Source: Ilumatobacteraceae bacterium (GTDB taxonomy: Bacteria; Actinomycetota; Acidimicrobiia; Acidimicrobiales; Ilumatobacteraceae). Taken from it: 42,628 nt of DNA. The stretch covers positions 1 through 42,628 of the forward strand of contig JANRCO010000017.1 in the NCBI GenBank assembly GCA_030726975.1. Reading direction: 5' to 3'. Shown in pieces: positions 28,782 to 35,299 of this stretch. A program made the position numbers and the translations under genes. A model generated the notes under the pieces. The model worked only from the letters and a program-made list of their open reading frames with translations. It did no database searches and had not been told where the DNA came from. How positions within the stretch are numbered: position 1 is the first letter of the stretch; each line of letters starts with the position of its first letter.

Positions 28782-30562
28782 TGTCTGTTGCAGCATTCCC
28801 CGAAATCAACTTGTTGCAGCGCATTTTGCCAGCGCGCGCCGACACGCTCGAGCCACCGCTTTACGAGCGCATTGCGGGCAATGTGCACAGTTTCGATACC
28901 TACTTTGGTGTCTTCCCTGCAGCACGCTGGCGGCGTAAATCGGCTGTTCATGCGTTGCATGTAGTACTTGAAGTGTCGGGGCCATGCGAAATTGAAGTAG
29001 TAGCAGTGAAGCGCTTAAAAGAAAGCATTGTGACCACACATGTGGCTCAAAGTGCTGGTGTTGTCAACATGCGTGTGTGTGATCTGCAAGACACCACAGT
29101 CGATTCCTATTACGTCAGTGTTCGTCGCAATAGCGACAATGGTGGCCGTCTCGTCACCGGTGGTTGGTATTCAGGTGCGGCCCCGTTGCGCGAAGTACGC
29201 ATGAATGCGGTCATCACCACGTTCAATCGCCAGCCTTACGTACTTGCCAACGTCGAACGGATGCGTCAACTCATTACTGAAGTGCCAAGCATTGAACAAT
29301 CTTTCCGTGCCACCATTGTCGACAACGGGCGTAACCTAGAAGTTCCAGCAAGTACAGGCATGAGCCCAACACTTATTCCTAACCCGAACTTGGGTGGTGC
29401 AGGTGGTTTTGCGCGTGGTCTTATTCATGCGCGCAACGATGGGTGGACCACTCATGTGGTGTTCATGGATGACGACATTTCACTTGAAGTGGAATCGTTA
29501 GTACGTACCATTGCGATGTTCCGCTATGCCACCGACGACAAGCTCTGTATTCACGGGGCCATGATCTCAGAAGAAATTCCCTGGATGCAGTTTGAAGCTG
29601 GCGCACACTATGCATGGCGTTACACGTATCCGCTGCGTGCAATTGGTCGTGAAGACGACCTGCGCGATCGCATCACAGTGCTGGCCGATGAACTCGAGCC
29701 GAAGTTTGAATACACCGCCTGGTGGTATACCGCGTTTCCCATTGCAGTTGGTAAAGAGAACCCGGTACCAGTCTTCGTGCGTGGCGACGACGTTGCCTTT
29801 GGCCTCATGCACACTGGCGAGCACAGCATCACCATGAAAGGTGTTGCAGTGTGGCACGCCGACTTTGCCCTCAAAAACGGGCCAATGACTCTGTACTACG
29901 AAACCCGCAACATGTTGTTGGTAGAAACATTGGTCTACGACCAGCACAAGTGGTATCACACGGCATATCGCACGTTGTCGTTTGGGTTCCGCAACATTTT
30001 CTCACTGCGCTATGCCAGTTTGGAATACATGTTGAAAGGTCTCGACCACTATTTGGAAGGCCCCGATTTCTGGCGCAATGTCGACCATGCGGCAATGCAC
30101 GATGAAGTGCGCGTGTGCCCCGAAGAAAAAGCTGTGCCGCTGAATGCCGAACTCAGCGCAATTCAAATTCCTGCTGGTATTCCAAAGCCCATTCGTCTCA
30201 TTGGCTTTATTGCTGCTGTGCCACTTGTTGGTGGTTACATATTGCCGCAGTGGTTGCGTTCCAAAAAGATGGGTGTTGCCCCCATCAACTCACGCGCGGT
30301 GGGCTTAGCTACGCGTCGTAACAGTATTTTGCATCGCCATCCACGCCTCGACGAGGGTTACGTGTTGGTGCGCGACACGCCACGTTTCTGGCGCGATATG
30401 AAGGCCTTGCGTGTATCGCTCATGCGTTTGCGCCGCGATTACCCACGCTTGAAGCGTGAATATCGTGCGTATTACCCCGAGATGGTGAGTGATGAAGCGT
30501 GGGCGCAGCGCTTTGGTGTTTCTATAGACGATCTGCGGTCGTCATCAATGCCAGCCAAGTAG
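28778..30562 (+). CDS. Galactofuranosyltransferase, GlfT2-like
   Basis: NAVITTFNRQPY...NPNLGGAGGFARGL...FMDDDISLE; YTAWWYTAFP; WHADFALKNGPMTLYYETRN; ATGA overlap with glf. Confidence 0.92.
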   Translation: MMSVAAFPEINLLQRILPARADTLEPPLYERIAGNVHSFDTYFGVFPAARWRRKSAVHALHVVLEVSGPCEIEVVAVKRLKESIVTTHVAQSAGVVNMRVCDLQDTTVDSYYVSVRRNSDNGGRLVTGGWYSGAAPLREVRMNAVITTFNRQPYVLANVERMRQLITEVPSIEQSFRATIVDNGRNLEVPASTGMSPTLIPNPNLGGAGGFARGLIHARNDGWTTHVVFMDDDISLEVESLVRTIAMFRYATDDKLCIHGAMISEEIPWMQFEAGAHYAWRYTYPLRAIGREDDLRDRITVLADELEPKFEYTAWWYTAFPIAVGKENPVPVFVRGDDVAFGLMHTGEHSITMKGVAVWHADFALKNGPMTLYYETRNMLLVETLVYDQHKWYHTAYRTLSFGFRNIFSLRYASLEYMLKGLDHYLEGPDFWRNVDHAAMHDEVRVCPEEKAVPLNAELSAIQIPAGIPKPIRLIGFIAAVPLVGGYILPQWLRSKKMGVAPINSRAVGLATRRNSILHRHPRLDEGYVLVRDTPRFWRDMKALRVSLMRLRRDYPRLKREYRAYYPEMVSDEAWAQRFGVSIDDLRSSSMPAK

Positions 30563-32897
30563 CACGGTTCACGTTGCCTGTAGCACGCAACTTTGCGCGT
30601 TGTTGGAACTGCTTCACGTAGTACACCGTGGGTCGGTCGTAATAGCCAGATGTTTTCAATGTAATTTTGAGTACCCGGTTGAGCGTTGCTTGCAAAACTT
30701 TCACCGACGGATGCTTCGCGCCGAGGCGCAACACAGATGTGCGTGGCTTTTTATCGAGGCCAAGACTTTTCCACACCTCAATGTCGACAACGCCATCAAC
30801 CGGAAGTGCCATGGCGGTTTCATACCTCTTAACCAGTGACCTTGTGCTCTTGCCGAAAATGCCATCGGTAGGAATCGCTTTCTTCTTCAGTTTGAAAGCA
30901 GCGTTCAGCGACTTCTGCACCAATTTCACCATGTCGCCTCTGTGTTTGGTGCGCAGTGGTAAACCAATCACCACATCGGGAGCCCCTGGTGTTTGGGGGA
31001 GCAGACCCTGAGCACGTAGTGCATCGAGTTGTGCACGAATGTATAACGCAAACTCGGTTTGGCCCGTTGCCGTGAGGTGCACATTGTCGTTCTTCACAAA
31101 CCAACGCCACCTTGGAGTGTCAGATGAATATGTATTCCAGTCGAACAGGGTGACATTTGCATGTGTTGCAGCAATGTTGGCGAGCGCTGTATTCGATACG
31201 TCGTACCCAGCCGTTGTGCGCCGAGTAGACATGTTGATGAAAATGATTCTCTGCACGCCTTTGGCAGTAAGCGCAGCTACTACTTGATCTGCTTCGGCGC
31301 CAAACGTGCTCGATGAATCGTTGTAGCCCAGTTGAATGACAGCGATTGCCGGTGTCTTATCTGCAGGTAATGAGTTGATGATGGTAATTCCATCGGGTGC
31401 TCCTGTGCATGAAGCGCCAATGAGACACCGCGAACTCTGCGCTTGATAATCGACATTGGGGTAGGCAGGGCGAACAATGCTGTTGAACTCAGAAGTAATA
31501 CTTTCTCCAACCGAGTCACCAATGAACAACATCGGCCCGACCACTGTTGATGTTGATGTTGAGCCGTAAACCGGTGTGGTTTCGTACCACGGAGAACGTA
31601 GAGCAAATGCCGATTTAAAATCCCACCCACCCACACTCACTACGCCTGCTGTGCCAGAAATGGTGACCTTGGTTGCATAGCCATTCCAATCGCTTCCTAG
31701 CCCGTCGTGGGTGGTAACAACAGAAAGCAGCACACCAATGCTTGGGTACTTCTTTTGAATACTCTTGGCATCAATCACCGCACTCCAATTGAGGTCAGAT
31801 GAATCGGCCGCAATGTCACCATCGTCAACACGCATGGGGAAAGTTGTGCCGGCAGTTCGGCCACCATTCGACGAGGTGAACTCAGTGCTCACCACGCCAC
31901 CTTTTGCGGTACGCATAATGAATCCACTGGTGTCGCTGATGGCAGTGTTGGTGCGCATGTCTTCTAAAACCGCAATGGGGCGGCCTATTTTCTCGCGAAG
32001 TGCTGCACCGCCGTACACCTGGCACGATTGCGTGTCGCAGGTTTTGGCGTAGCTATAGCGCTTTTGGCCAAGGGAGTACGAGCGTGCAGCAACTGCTTGC
32101 GCACGTAGTGCATTCATGCCTGCGCCACCTGCGAGGTCGCCCCAAGACGCAGGAGATTCACGAGGAACTACTCCACGCAAGTAATCGTCGAGTTTCACCA
32201 GGTTGACGGTGCGATTTTCTTTGTCGGTTCCATTCACGGCACGAATGGTTCCGCGGTAGTAACGCGTGGCACCCGCGGGTTCACATATGCCAATTGCATC
32301 ATTTGGCATCACTGCTGCAGATGCATCGTTGCTGAGAGTTGTTGAAACATTGGTGGGGCCAGCAATGTCGGCAACGAGAACGAATTTGTTTGCTACGGGG
32401 TCAGATTGTTCAGCAACACAAGTTGGTGTGGTGCTTCCCCATACGCGATACGTGCCCACAGTGCCGGCAATCTCGCGCACCACTAGCGCTGCCCATTTGC
32501 GACCCGGCACGGGGTCGTTCTCAAGAAGGAGAGAAGCATTTTCCGACACCATTGCTGTTTGTTTGTTGTCGAGGGCGGTGAGTCGCACACTCATGACGCC
32601 GTTGGGTGTGAGATCCGCATCTGCATCGGTGAGTGGCGACAACGTGGTGCCGCCGTAATAGAAGTCGAGAATTTCTTGCCAGGTTTTGCTGTAGGTGGTG
32701 GCCCAGCCGAGTGCGCCGTATTGGCTCATGCCACGCCCGTGACCATTTCCTTTGCCGTTCACCAAAATCGATGCGGGGGGTAGACCCGCGAATTCGTCTG
32801 CAAATGCAGGGGGAGTGGGTACCGCGAAGAGGAAGGTGCTCAACAAGACCGCCGCAACAATGATGCGACGAAGTTGAGTTGAGGACGCGTGGATCAT
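30522..32897 (-). CDS. SpoIID-domain / SGNH hydrolase / two PG-binding domain secreted protein
   Basis: Signal peptide; SpoIID motif GNGHGRGMSQYGALGWA and LRGVVPRESPASWGD; SGNH blocks FIGDSVGES, LGYND, DNVHLT; two PG_binding_1-like repeats at C-terminus. Confidence 0.9.
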   Translation of the reverse strand: MIHASSTQLRRIIVAAVLLSTFLFAVPTPPAFADEFAGLPPASILVNGKGNGHGRGMSQYGALGWATTYSKTWQEILDFYYGGTTLSPLTDADADLTPNGVMSVRLTALDNKQTAMVSENASLLLENDPVPGRKWAALVVREIAGTVGTYRVWGSTTPTCVAEQSDPVANKFVLVADIAGPTNVSTTLSNDASAAVMPNDAIGICEPAGATRYYRGTIRAVNGTDKENRTVNLVKLDDYLRGVVPRESPASWGDLAGGAGMNALRAQAVAARSYSLGQKRYSYAKTCDTQSCQVYGGAALREKIGRPIAVLEDMRTNTAISDTSGFIMRTAKGGVVSTEFTSSNGGRTAGTTFPMRVDDGDIAADSSDLNWSAVIDAKSIQKKYPSIGVLLSVVTTHDGLGSDWNGYATKVTISGTAGVVSVGGWDFKSAFALRSPWYETTPVYGSTSTSTVVGPMLFIGDSVGESITSEFNSIVRPAYPNVDYQAQSSRCLIGASCTGAPDGITIINSLPADKTPAIAVIQLGYNDSSSTFGAEADQVVAALTAKGVQRIIFINMSTRRTTAGYDVSNTALANIAATHANVTLFDWNTYSSDTPRWRWFVKNDNVHLTATGQTEFALYIRAQLDALRAQGLLPQTPGAPDVVIGLPLRTKHRGDMVKLVQKSLNAAFKLKKKAIPTDGIFGKSTRSLVKRYETAMALPVDGVVDIEVWKSLGLDKKPRTSVLRLGAKHPSVKVLQATLNRVLKITLKTSGYYDRPTVYYVKQFQQRAKLRATGNVNRATWLALMTTADRL

Positions 32898-32931: not shown

Positions 32932-33891
32932 TTATCGGCAACTACCCCCTCCCCCTTGAGTGTTCTCGGCGCCGTATGTCACGTTTTTTGCAACATTTTG
33001 CGCCGAGAAACCTCTTTCGAGGTTCGCAGCGACAAGTTTTGGCTCAAAAGCAATCTGTCGGAATGAAAAGCGCCACACCGTGTAGCCCAAAGATTGCAAT
33101 TCCGCATCGCGAAGGCGGTCATTTTCAAAAGCATCGCGAGTTGACCCGTGATAGGAAAACCCATCGCATTCCACAATTGCTCGATACTGCCGCCAGAGAA
33201 AATCAACTCGGTGATTGCCAACTTGAGCTTGAAATTCAAATGGAGGCAATTTATTCATGAAACAAAGGGACAACATTTTTGCTTCCAAAACACTTTCGGG
33301 TTGTGCAGTGTCGAGATCCCATTTATTCAGGAGGTTTTTCAACTGCGTAATGCCGGGGCGACCCTGTTTCGCATGAAGAAAAAGTTGTCGCCATGCAGAT
33401 TGGATAGTGAATTGATCGGCAACTAAGAAATGTTCAAGTACGCGGTGGGCAAGTGCGGGGTTCCATGCGCACGTATCGAGCAGTGTGCGAAATGGCGAAG
33501 TAGAGGGAATTCCTTGCGTGTCGATAGGAGAAAGGTCATAAGTATCAATTGGGCGATGCACGACAGCGCCAACAAGTTTGCGGTGAAGTGGCCGCGTGGG
33601 GCTCAGAATATGGATGGGTTCAATGAATGGAAGCGATACTCCATGCAGCCAAGCCGCAGTTGCTCCTCCCGCCATCGCATCTTTCCCAGATGCACGAACT
33701 GCAGCAGCAATACGTTGTTCTGGTGACTGCTGTGTGTTGGTGACCGCGCCAATTCCAGGCTGGAGAATAGAGAGATAGCCACGATGAACTGCGCGACTCC
33801 AAGAAGAGCGAGAAACGTGAGCAGGAACAACTTCGCCGTGGGCGATGAGGCCGAATTGATCTGCGAATTGCTGAAGTGTGTTGTGGTACAT
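32932..33891 (-). CDS. AbiEi-like N-terminal domain + DUF559 (Vsr/PD-(D/E)XK-like) protein
   Basis: N-term FGLIAHGEVVPAHVSRSSWSRAVHRGYLSILQPGI; C-term PESVLEAK...HRVDFLWRQYRAIVECDGFSYHGSTRDAFENDRLRDAELQSLGYTVWRFSF. Confidence 0.9.
   Translation of the reverse strand: MYHNTLQQFADQFGLIAHGEVVPAHVSRSSWSRAVHRGYLSILQPGIGAVTNTQQSPEQRIAAAVRASGKDAMAGGATAAWLHGVSLPFIEPIHILSPTRPLHRKLVGAVVHRPIDTYDLSPIDTQGIPSTSPFRTLLDTCAWNPALAHRVLEHFLVADQFTIQSAWRQLFLHAKQGRPGITQLKNLLNKWDLDTAQPESVLEAKMLSLCFMNKLPPFEFQAQVGNHRVDFLWRQYRAIVECDGFSYHGSTRDAFENDRLRDAELQSLGYTVWRFSFRQIAFEPKLVAANLERGFSAQNVAKNVTYGAENTQGGGGSCR
32960..33012 (+). repeat. Left 53-bp terminal inverted repeat (itself a hairpin-forming palindrome)
   Basis: GTGTTCTCGGCGCCGTATGTCACGTTTTTTGCAACATTTTGCGCCGAGAAACC; 43/53 identical to reverse complement of 33935-33987; 10-bp perfect stem 32963-32972/33000-33009. 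Confidence 0.95.
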
Positions 33892-33934
33892 ACCTGACTG
33901 TGTGCATTAGTCACATGAGAGCGCCACAAATTTT

Positions 33935-33987
33935 GGTTTCTCGGCGCGTTTCGTCACGAAAAGCGGGACATACGGCGCCGAGAACAC
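33935..33987 (-). repeat. Right 53-bp terminal inverted repeat (itself a hairpin-forming palindrome)
   Basis: GGTTTCTCGGCGCGTTTCGTCACGAAAAGCGGGACATACGGCGCCGAGAACAC; 10-bp perfect stem 33938-33947/33975-33984. Confidence 0.95.
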
Positions 33988-34012
33988 TAAAAGTGGGTTA
34001 TAGCCTGAAGGG

Positions 34013-35299
34013 ATGAAGCAAGAGGTGCGTTTAGGCGTTATTGGTGTGGGAAATGTCGGAGCGGCATTGATCAACCTTGTTCACGAGCGTGCTGAAACAA
34101 TTACCCAGCGCACAGGCATCACTTTGGTGGTGAGCCGAGCCTCCGTGCGCGATCTTTCACGTGCTCGTGGCGTGTCGCTCGACGCGAAAGCATTCACTGC
34201 GAACCCGCTCGACGTGGTCAATGACCCCAATGTCGATGTTGTGGTGGAACTCATGGGCGGAATTGAGCCCGCTCGCGACCTCATCACCCAAGCACTGGGC
34301 AAAGGCAAGCCGGTGGTCACGGCAAATAAGGCGCTCCTTGCCGAGCATGGCGCAGAACTTTTTGCTGCTGCCGACGCTGCGGGTGTTGACCTTCTCTTTG
34401 AAGCCGCAGTTGCTGGCGGCATTCCATTCATTCGTCCGTTGCGCGAAAGTTTGCGTGGCGAACCGATACGCCGTGTCATGGGCATTGTGAATGGCACCAC
34501 AAACTTTATTTTGACGAAGATGACAGAAGAGGGTGCCGACTACGCAGCAGTTCTTGCTGAAGCTCAAGCTTTGGGTTATGCCGAAGCCGACCCCACAGCC
34601 GATGTTGAAGCATTCGATGCGGCTGCGAAGTGTGCAGTGATTGCGAGCATCGCATTTGGAGCCAACGTCACTTCACACGATGTTCATCGCGAAGGAATTA
34701 CTACGGTCACAGCGGCCAACATTGCTGTGGCAAAACGCCTCGGTTATGTAGTGAAGTTGCTTGCCATTGCGGAAATCGATGCAGATTCGCAAGAACTTTC
34801 TGTACGCGTGCACCCTGCAATGGTGCCACTCAACCACCCACTAGCCAGCGTGCGCGAGGCGTATAACGCCGTGTTCGTCGAGGGCGATGCAGTGGGGTCG
34901 TTAATGTTCTACGGCCGTGGTGCCGGTGGCAGCCCAACGGCAAGTGCGGTACTGGGCGACATCATTGACGCTGCAGTGAACTTGAAAAAAGGCACGCACG
35001 CCATGCTGGGTTCGTTCTCAAAACCACGCTTCACCGCAATAGATAAAACGCATAGCGAATATATGTTGGCACTTGAAGTGCTCGACCAACCAGGTGTTTT
35101 GCACAGCATTACAGGCGTGTTTGCACAAAACGGCGTGAGCATTCGTACAGCCGAACAAGAAGGCATTGGCGAAAATGCACGTCTTGTTTTCATTACACAC
35201 CTTGCACAAGAAGCTTCGGTCCAAAAGTGTTTGCGCGATTTCGCAGGTCTTGCAGTAGTCAAACGATCGGGTGACTTCATTCGAGTTGTAGGGCAATAA
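34013..35299 (+). CDS. hom: Homoserine dehydrogenase
   Basis: GVIGVGNVGAALI; VVVELMGGIEPARDLITQALGKGKPVVTANKALLA; GTTNFILTKM; C-terminal ACT-like domain. Confidence 0.96.
   Translation: MKQEVRLGVIGVGNVGAALINLVHERAETITQRTGITLVVSRASVRDLSRARGVSLDAKAFTANPLDVVNDPNVDVVVELMGGIEPARDLITQALGKGKPVVTANKALLAEHGAELFAAADAAGVDLLFEAAVAGGIPFIRPLRESLRGEPIRRVMGIVNGTTNFILTKMTEEGADYAAVLAEAQALGYAEADPTADVEAFDAAAKCAVIASIAFGANVTSHDVHREGITTVTAANIAVAKRLGYVVKLLAIAEIDADSQELSVRVHPAMVPLNHPLASVREAYNAVFVEGDAVGSLMFYGRGAGGSPTASAVLGDIIDAAVNLKKGTHAMLGSFSKPRFTAIDKTHSEYMLALEVLDQPGVLHSITGVFAQNGVSIRTAEQEGIGENARLVFITHLAQEASVQKCLRDFAGLAVVKRSGDFIRVVGQ

Follow-up and report, generated by a model that had tools for sequence, protein, structure and literature searches.

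Two hairpins around a DUF559 gene as probable members of a family of tagged, REP-like palindromes in freshwater Acidimicrobiia

In a stretch of 42,628 nucleotides of DNA from an Ilumatobacteraceae bacterium, analysed at its full length and referred to here as the window, two inverted hairpins bracket a gene for a DUF559 protein, which raises the question whether hairpins and protein are parts of one mobile unit or whether the gene happens to lie between repeats of another kind. A preliminary description leaned towards the former and saw in the hairpins a parallel to the palindromes that RAYT or IS200-like enzymes recognise as single strands, with the DUF559 protein cast as the partner. We favour the latter, and at a probability of about 0.6 hold that both hairpins belong to a family of REP-like palindromes that carry a tag, the DUF559 gene being a passenger.

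Anatomy of the hairpins and their copies in the genome

The left hairpin (positions 32963-33009, minus strand; covariance model match with E = 5.4e-20) consists of an outer, tagged half (32963-32983), a TTTTT spacer (32984-32988) and an inner half (32989-33009), and carries at its outer end the tag AGTG (32959-32962), which reads CACT on the minus strand. The right hairpin (33938-33984, plus strand; E = 6.0e-18) is laid out the other way round, its inner half (33938-33958) and AAAAG spacer (33959-33963) coming before the outer half (33964-33984) and the tag CACT (33985-33988, plus strand); both copies are of the paired type (see below) and both were in the training set of the model that matches them. 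Between the hairpins lies the gene for a DUF559 / MTES_1575 nuclease-like protein of 319 amino acids with a weak AbiEi match (32932-33891, minus strand), and the 3' end of this reading frame translates the left hairpin in frame. Conserved beside the site are a gene for a protein with a SpoIID domain and a peptidoglycan-binding part on the left (30522-32897, minus strand) and homoserine dehydrogenase (hom; 34013-35299, plus strand) on the right. The right hairpin is thereby placed between the divergent DUF559 and hom genes, 28 nt 5' of the hom start codon, which follows 24 nt after the tag.

As the preliminary description had it, both hairpins contain a perfect 10-bp stem, TTCTCGGCGC/GCGCCGAGAA, with 27 nt between its arms. 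These 27 nt are not, however, the free loop they were taken for, since they divide into 11, 5 and 11 nt and form an imperfect inner stem around AAAAA or AAAAG. Because a sister copy (C90:836-882) pairs over its full 21 bp, as a perfect palindrome around AAAAA (-29.9 kcal/mol on DNA folding), the supposed loop is a decayed or chimeric inner stem. The window copies, also folded as DNA, reach -13.3 and -16.1 kcal/mol with z scores of -4.5 and -4.6, and copies of the family range from -4.5 to -12.6. The loop half that had been called conserved is so over more than the GACATACG singled out at the time: the block reads CGKGACATACG-GCGCCGAGAA and then the tag CACT, and GACATACG itself is kept in one clade only, the sister clade having other sequences there. 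A nested TTTCG-TCA-CGAAA hairpin is present in the right copy, as described, yet is no feature of the family.

Across the genome (1.5 Mb, 103 contigs), the 10-mer TTCTCGGCGC occurs 35 times as against 3 times for a reversed control, and the pattern stem-N20-34-stem is found in 11 places as against none for its control; stretch scanning, together with a covariance model trained on 17 copies, gives a total of 17. Both window hairpins are far beyond chance, and because of the 17 copies and the pattern count (11 versus 0) we can say that they belong to a genome-wide repeat family and are not the feature of a single locus. Other hairpins of the window's form, which the preliminary description had proposed to look for, turn out to be abundant. 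The dispersed unit is a 47-nt palindrome plus a 4-nt tag, AGTG/AGGG: in the alignment, copies run through TTCTCGGCGC, 11 nt, AAAAR, 11 nt and GCGCCGAGAA to a CACT or CCCT tag, which is present in 17/17. At the gathering score, searches of five sources against Rfam returned no family, only tRNAs. A phage origin was ruled out, the exact pattern being found in 0 of 2.9 million viral contigs. Among single copies, one (L011:2440-2486) lies upstream of TTATCCACA/TTATTCACA-like words, possibly near an origin, and another (L020:2122-2168) shortly after what by its appearance is the 3' end of a tRNA.

Clade dialects and covariation

All 13 genomes of the genus that we searched, judged by named relatives a group of freshwater actinobacteria within the Acidimicrobiia, carry copies, typically about 17 each; genome G001 has 4 matches only, mostly degenerate. 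The copies come in dialects. Clade A, which includes the window's own genome, G028, G146 and others, has GCGCCGAGAA with CATAC, and clade B (G116, G094, G071) has mostly ACACCGAGAA with AATTAC-like halves. About 14 of 36 neighbourhood groups, by our reading of the groups, hold copies of both clades, so that the sites are old and their sequences go with the clade. Yet another dialect, the third and by its looks an older one, persists in G001 and also in a few decayed copies of clade B, at sites that in clade A bear that clade's dialect.

That dialects change together at orthologous sites, and that the long perfect dyads resemble operators, would also fit palindromes that serve as binding sites of a DNA-binding protein - a regulator or a chromosome organiser - with the dialects reflecting co-evolution of site and protein. 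To our minds this is improbable: the neighbouring genes are of unrelated function, many copies come after 3' ends rather than at promoters, and those of G001 are few and degenerate. Moreover, old-dialect copies in clade B persist and decay beside new ones, a situation that selection on all sites would forbid.

Stem covariation, proposed earlier as a check on the hairpins, depends on the distance over which it is sought. The 17 copies of the own genome do not covary, their outer stem being almost invariant. Farther afield, weak model matches in other genera are partly long palindromes of similar layout, and a wider covariance model made from these matches detects hairpins of this kind in 24 of 395 genomes from the class, which shows similar hairpins and not proven common descent, as the mixed dialects of this model were chosen and registered by eye. 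In the wider-model alignment, double changes across genera occur at 16 of 22 pairs, and double-change cells number 111 as against 42 +/- 5 on shuffling (0 of 500). Since selecting clear hairpins itself favours pairing, this covariation is better taken as support for a conserved palindrome than as a measure of that conservation.

In a complete genome of another genus (G019; L311-L330), own perfect palindromes of the types GCGTGAACAAACTGCGGAA-cta-TTCCGCAGTTTGTTCACGC and GTCGGATACGTTTCGTCG recur in several copies within 400 kb. We also note that MAG records of the group (L183, L201, L204 and others) are titled Bifidobacterium breve or Acidobacteria, titles that look wrong.

Outward-facing pairs and the genes between them

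When 216 unique copies are compared, the bulk of them from some 14 species of the genus and a few loci from other genera, two forms can be told apart. A solo is a perfect palindrome flanked by tags at either end; a paired copy is a chimera of a tagged, clade-specific outer half and an untagged inner half. Thus 24 of the 28 copies in which all 11 inner pairs form are tagged on both sides, and copies with 1-6 inner pairs mostly have a one-sided tag. Tagged halves are, for example, GGTATGTCCCG and CGTATGTCCCG in clade A or GTAATTACCCG and GAATTGACTCG in clade B; untagged halves are close to RNAWYGTYGCR and different from the tagged ones. Chimeric copies are mostly found in tag-outward pairs; for some, among them four copies of the own genome, no partner could be recognised. 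One symmetric copy in G094 (L155:672-718, contig C35) bears both tags and yet has inner-type halves.

Adjacent asymmetric copies within 3.5 kb of each other point their tags outward in 37 of 43 pairs (37 (-,+), 1 (+,-), 3 (-,-) and 2 (+,+)), although the 37 count orthologous loci repeatedly and correspond to an estimated 14 or so independent (-,+) sites. Because independent insertion would make all four orientations common, the tag-outward couple probably arises as a unit.

With regard to genes, 39 of 52 tag sides look towards a 3' end, for the most part 3-13 nt past the stop codon, and 13 towards a 5' end, and the intergenic solos (13 contexts) occupy 7 tandem, 6 convergent and 0 divergent intervals; these counts rest on mechanically called ORFs, so single cases may be wrong. 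Together with a palindrome conserved by covariation, such a preference for 3' ends and the lack of divergent solos might suggest transcription terminators or stabilisers of mRNA 3' ends, acting two-way as solos and one-way as chimeric copies. We see this as possible but unlikely. No U-tract follows the stem, a genome contains only some 17 copies, and the right window copy, the exception to REP-like placement, sits between divergent genes in both clades. A further copy is in frame within coding sequence, where an MFS transporter gene carries the hairpin in a linker (G000:C83:13857-13903; L021:2358-2404), and in clade B the same position is occupied by that clade's own sequence, again in frame. 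RNA folding alone would also leave the dialects and the two types of half unexplained.

What the couples enclose are one or two accessory genes unrelated from pair to pair: DUF559, DUF2237, a GNAT acetyltransferase, a DAO oxidoreductase with an SDR, SMP-30 and a CrgA-domain protein, as well as Exo_endo_phos, ECH, EamA, PhyH, Dabb and nitroreductase genes. The p450-nrdJ site, compared over loci L124, L150, L180, L284, L237 and L239, holds a near-perfect solo in G071, a 143-bp pair in G116, a pair with patatin as passenger in a further MAG and a longer gene set in G146. In the case of the SMP-30 pair, the right hairpin is missing from G105 and G045, and the arm end and tag remain. Elsewhere (L122:1087-2052), a CorA transporter gene lies between hairpin and neighbouring gene in G146, not in the own genome.

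Such contrasts - solo versus pair at one site in two species (G071 and G116), different contents at p450-nrdJ - bring gene cassettes to mind, with solos as empty targets and each pair as a cassette that has its own inner ends and is put in by a hairpin-recognising recombinase. The inner halves do form a separate class, which the symmetric L155 copy of inner-type halves shares, and this, too, would be in line with cassettes. However, the spacers at the two ends are inverted rather than parallel, which does not agree with insertion by simple conservative crossover there; the one resolved loss fused arms and not spacers, the passengers are old and mostly vertically inherited, and no integron-type integrase is recognised from Phage_integrase counts in the 13 genomes. 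All in all, we rate the idea as doubtful. The same doubt applies to a bolder version of it, a chromosome-wide cassette system without linked integrase, in which palindromes would dock genes with palindrome-mimicking ends so that each end re-forms a hairpin, and a single-strand-recognising enzyme would insert, remove and homogenise, giving rise to the clade dialects.

Returning to the passenger of the window, the hairpin pair around DUF559 between SpoIID and hom is common to the own genome, G146 and G028. Based on tblastn at hom, DUF559 adjoins hom in G059, G071 and G116 as well, survives as a remnant in G001 and is absent next to hom in G105, G083 and G045; G094 also has DUF559 at hom. G105, whose hom is 98% identical to that of the own genome, has a single hairpin in which ...AGTGTTCTAGGCGC is joined to GTTTCGTCACGAAAAGCGGGACATACGGCGCCGAGAACACT; the outer arm of the left copy here runs on into the remainder of the right one. 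Judged by its sequence, this junction looks as expected for a deletion between two direct TTCTCGGCGC arms. A similar, more diverged single hairpin is found in G083, and the 55 nt at the corresponding place in G045 are too diverged to be read as one. Three changes are needed on the hom tree, which does not settle the order of losses. On grounds of parsimony, loss of DUF559 is the preferred direction of change, because in the other clade, too, the gene is found at this site, and G001 retains a remnant of it there. So the hairpins have probably let at least one bracketed gene be lost.

A DUF559-centred mobile unit, as had been proposed for this locus, could draw on the fact that the window pair brackets DUF559 and that the arrangement is kept in the other clade, but we find it hardly credible. 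There is one DUF559 gene for the 17 hairpin copies of the own genome, other pairs hold unrelated genes, and hairpins are kept by genomes - most of them incomplete - without any DUF559 match (G105, G083, G127, G137 and, with its 4 matches, G001). The expected enrichment of hairpins near DUF559 is likewise not seen. DUF559 is therefore a passenger and not the partner enzyme.

Relation to known repeats and the question of a spreading enzyme

If not DUF559, which enzyme might spread the family? Our search covered two protein families, Y1_Tnp and Phage_integrase. With positive controls working and at E <= 1, Y1_Tnp (RAYT) is found in 0 of the 13 genus genomes, the own one and 12 relatives, whose completeness of 76-96% (76-92% for most) makes absence no proof; a RAYT partner was nonetheless discarded on this result. 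Phage_integrase has 1-2 matches per genome in 11 of 13, the usual two of which we take by their count for XerC and XerD, and an integron integrase is not apparent in most genomes, which show nothing beyond these XerC/XerD-like counts. G116 has 3 matches and G045 has 4, those above the usual two being located on G116:C191, G045:C7 and G045:C31.

As to its kind, the likening to REPs stands: the family is a dispersed, tagged, mostly extragenic palindrome that often occurs in inverted pairs. Tagged REPs are palindromic, often in opposite orientation and downstream of genes, sometimes inside genes, and there are CGTC REPs without a dedicated transposase (Di Nocera 2013, PMC3733652). Similarly, the repeats described here are short stem-loop palindromes with a tetranucleotide tag, fall into several sequence families with closely spaced, oppositely oriented units, and lie downstream of genes, in tandem or convergent intervals and occasionally inside a gene. 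They differ in their tag (AGTG/AGGG instead of GTAG/CGTC), which solos have at both ends, in their length (47 nt compared to 20-40), in their chimeric halves and in pairs that bracket whole genes. Hence the family works like tagged REPs but, because its tag differs, is no GTAG or CGTC REP.

With REPINs or BIMEs it shares inverted doublets, tags outward, as the apparent unit; here, in contrast, the two units may lie just a few nt or as much as about 2.6 kb apart and enclose protein-coding genes, and RAYT was not found. Elements of the RAYT and IS200-IS605 type also have hairpin ends with a tetranucleotide and a gene between inverted hairpins, whereas in our case the passengers are unrelated and none of the 13 genus genomes has a Y1 transposase. 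Acinetobacter dif (pdif) modules and integron cassettes resemble our pairs in having single genes between inverted imperfect palindromes with a short central spacer. Our pairs differ in having dispersed chromosomal loci rather than a plasmid or an array, no recognised integron integrase, inverted spacers, arms of about 25 bp, and a resolved loss that joined arms, not spacers. The hairpins also seem unlike the dif core. Rickettsia palindromic elements (RPE), finally, compare to the palindrome in frame inside the MFS coding sequence, but this is one such locus, and sequence and tag differ.

For the REP-like family that we favour, we would envisage a trans-acting enzyme that disperses the palindrome as DNA and keeps its copies uniform, and a tag-outward pair that arises as a unit and whose near-identical arms may act as short direct repeats, so that the bracketed gene can drop out. 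Against a REP-like reading stand a copy number (17) that is low compared to the >100 usual for REPs and a search for the two protein families that yielded no spreading enzyme in the genus genomes. Transposition is also unlikely to be frequent, given that positions are orthologous and turnover is slow, and nowhere did we see an empty site that had clearly received a recent insertion, from which a target-site duplication, as expected for a MITE of a DDE transposon, might be read.

Among the open-access papers searched, we came across no earlier description of the family in this group, and the word Actinobacteria is absent from the survey of GTAG/CGTC-tagged REPs (Di Nocera 2013, PMC3733652). REP biology would thus extend to the Acidimicrobiia, a class unnamed in the main survey of tagged REPs, with a family that shows gene-bracketing pairs and replacement of dialects. 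It makes two questions testable: what keeps short palindromes alike across a genome that has no RAYT, and whether genes of small freshwater genomes are lost more readily when repeats bracket them. For both, the same-site contrasts - a solo, an empty pair or pairs with differing genes - are ready material.
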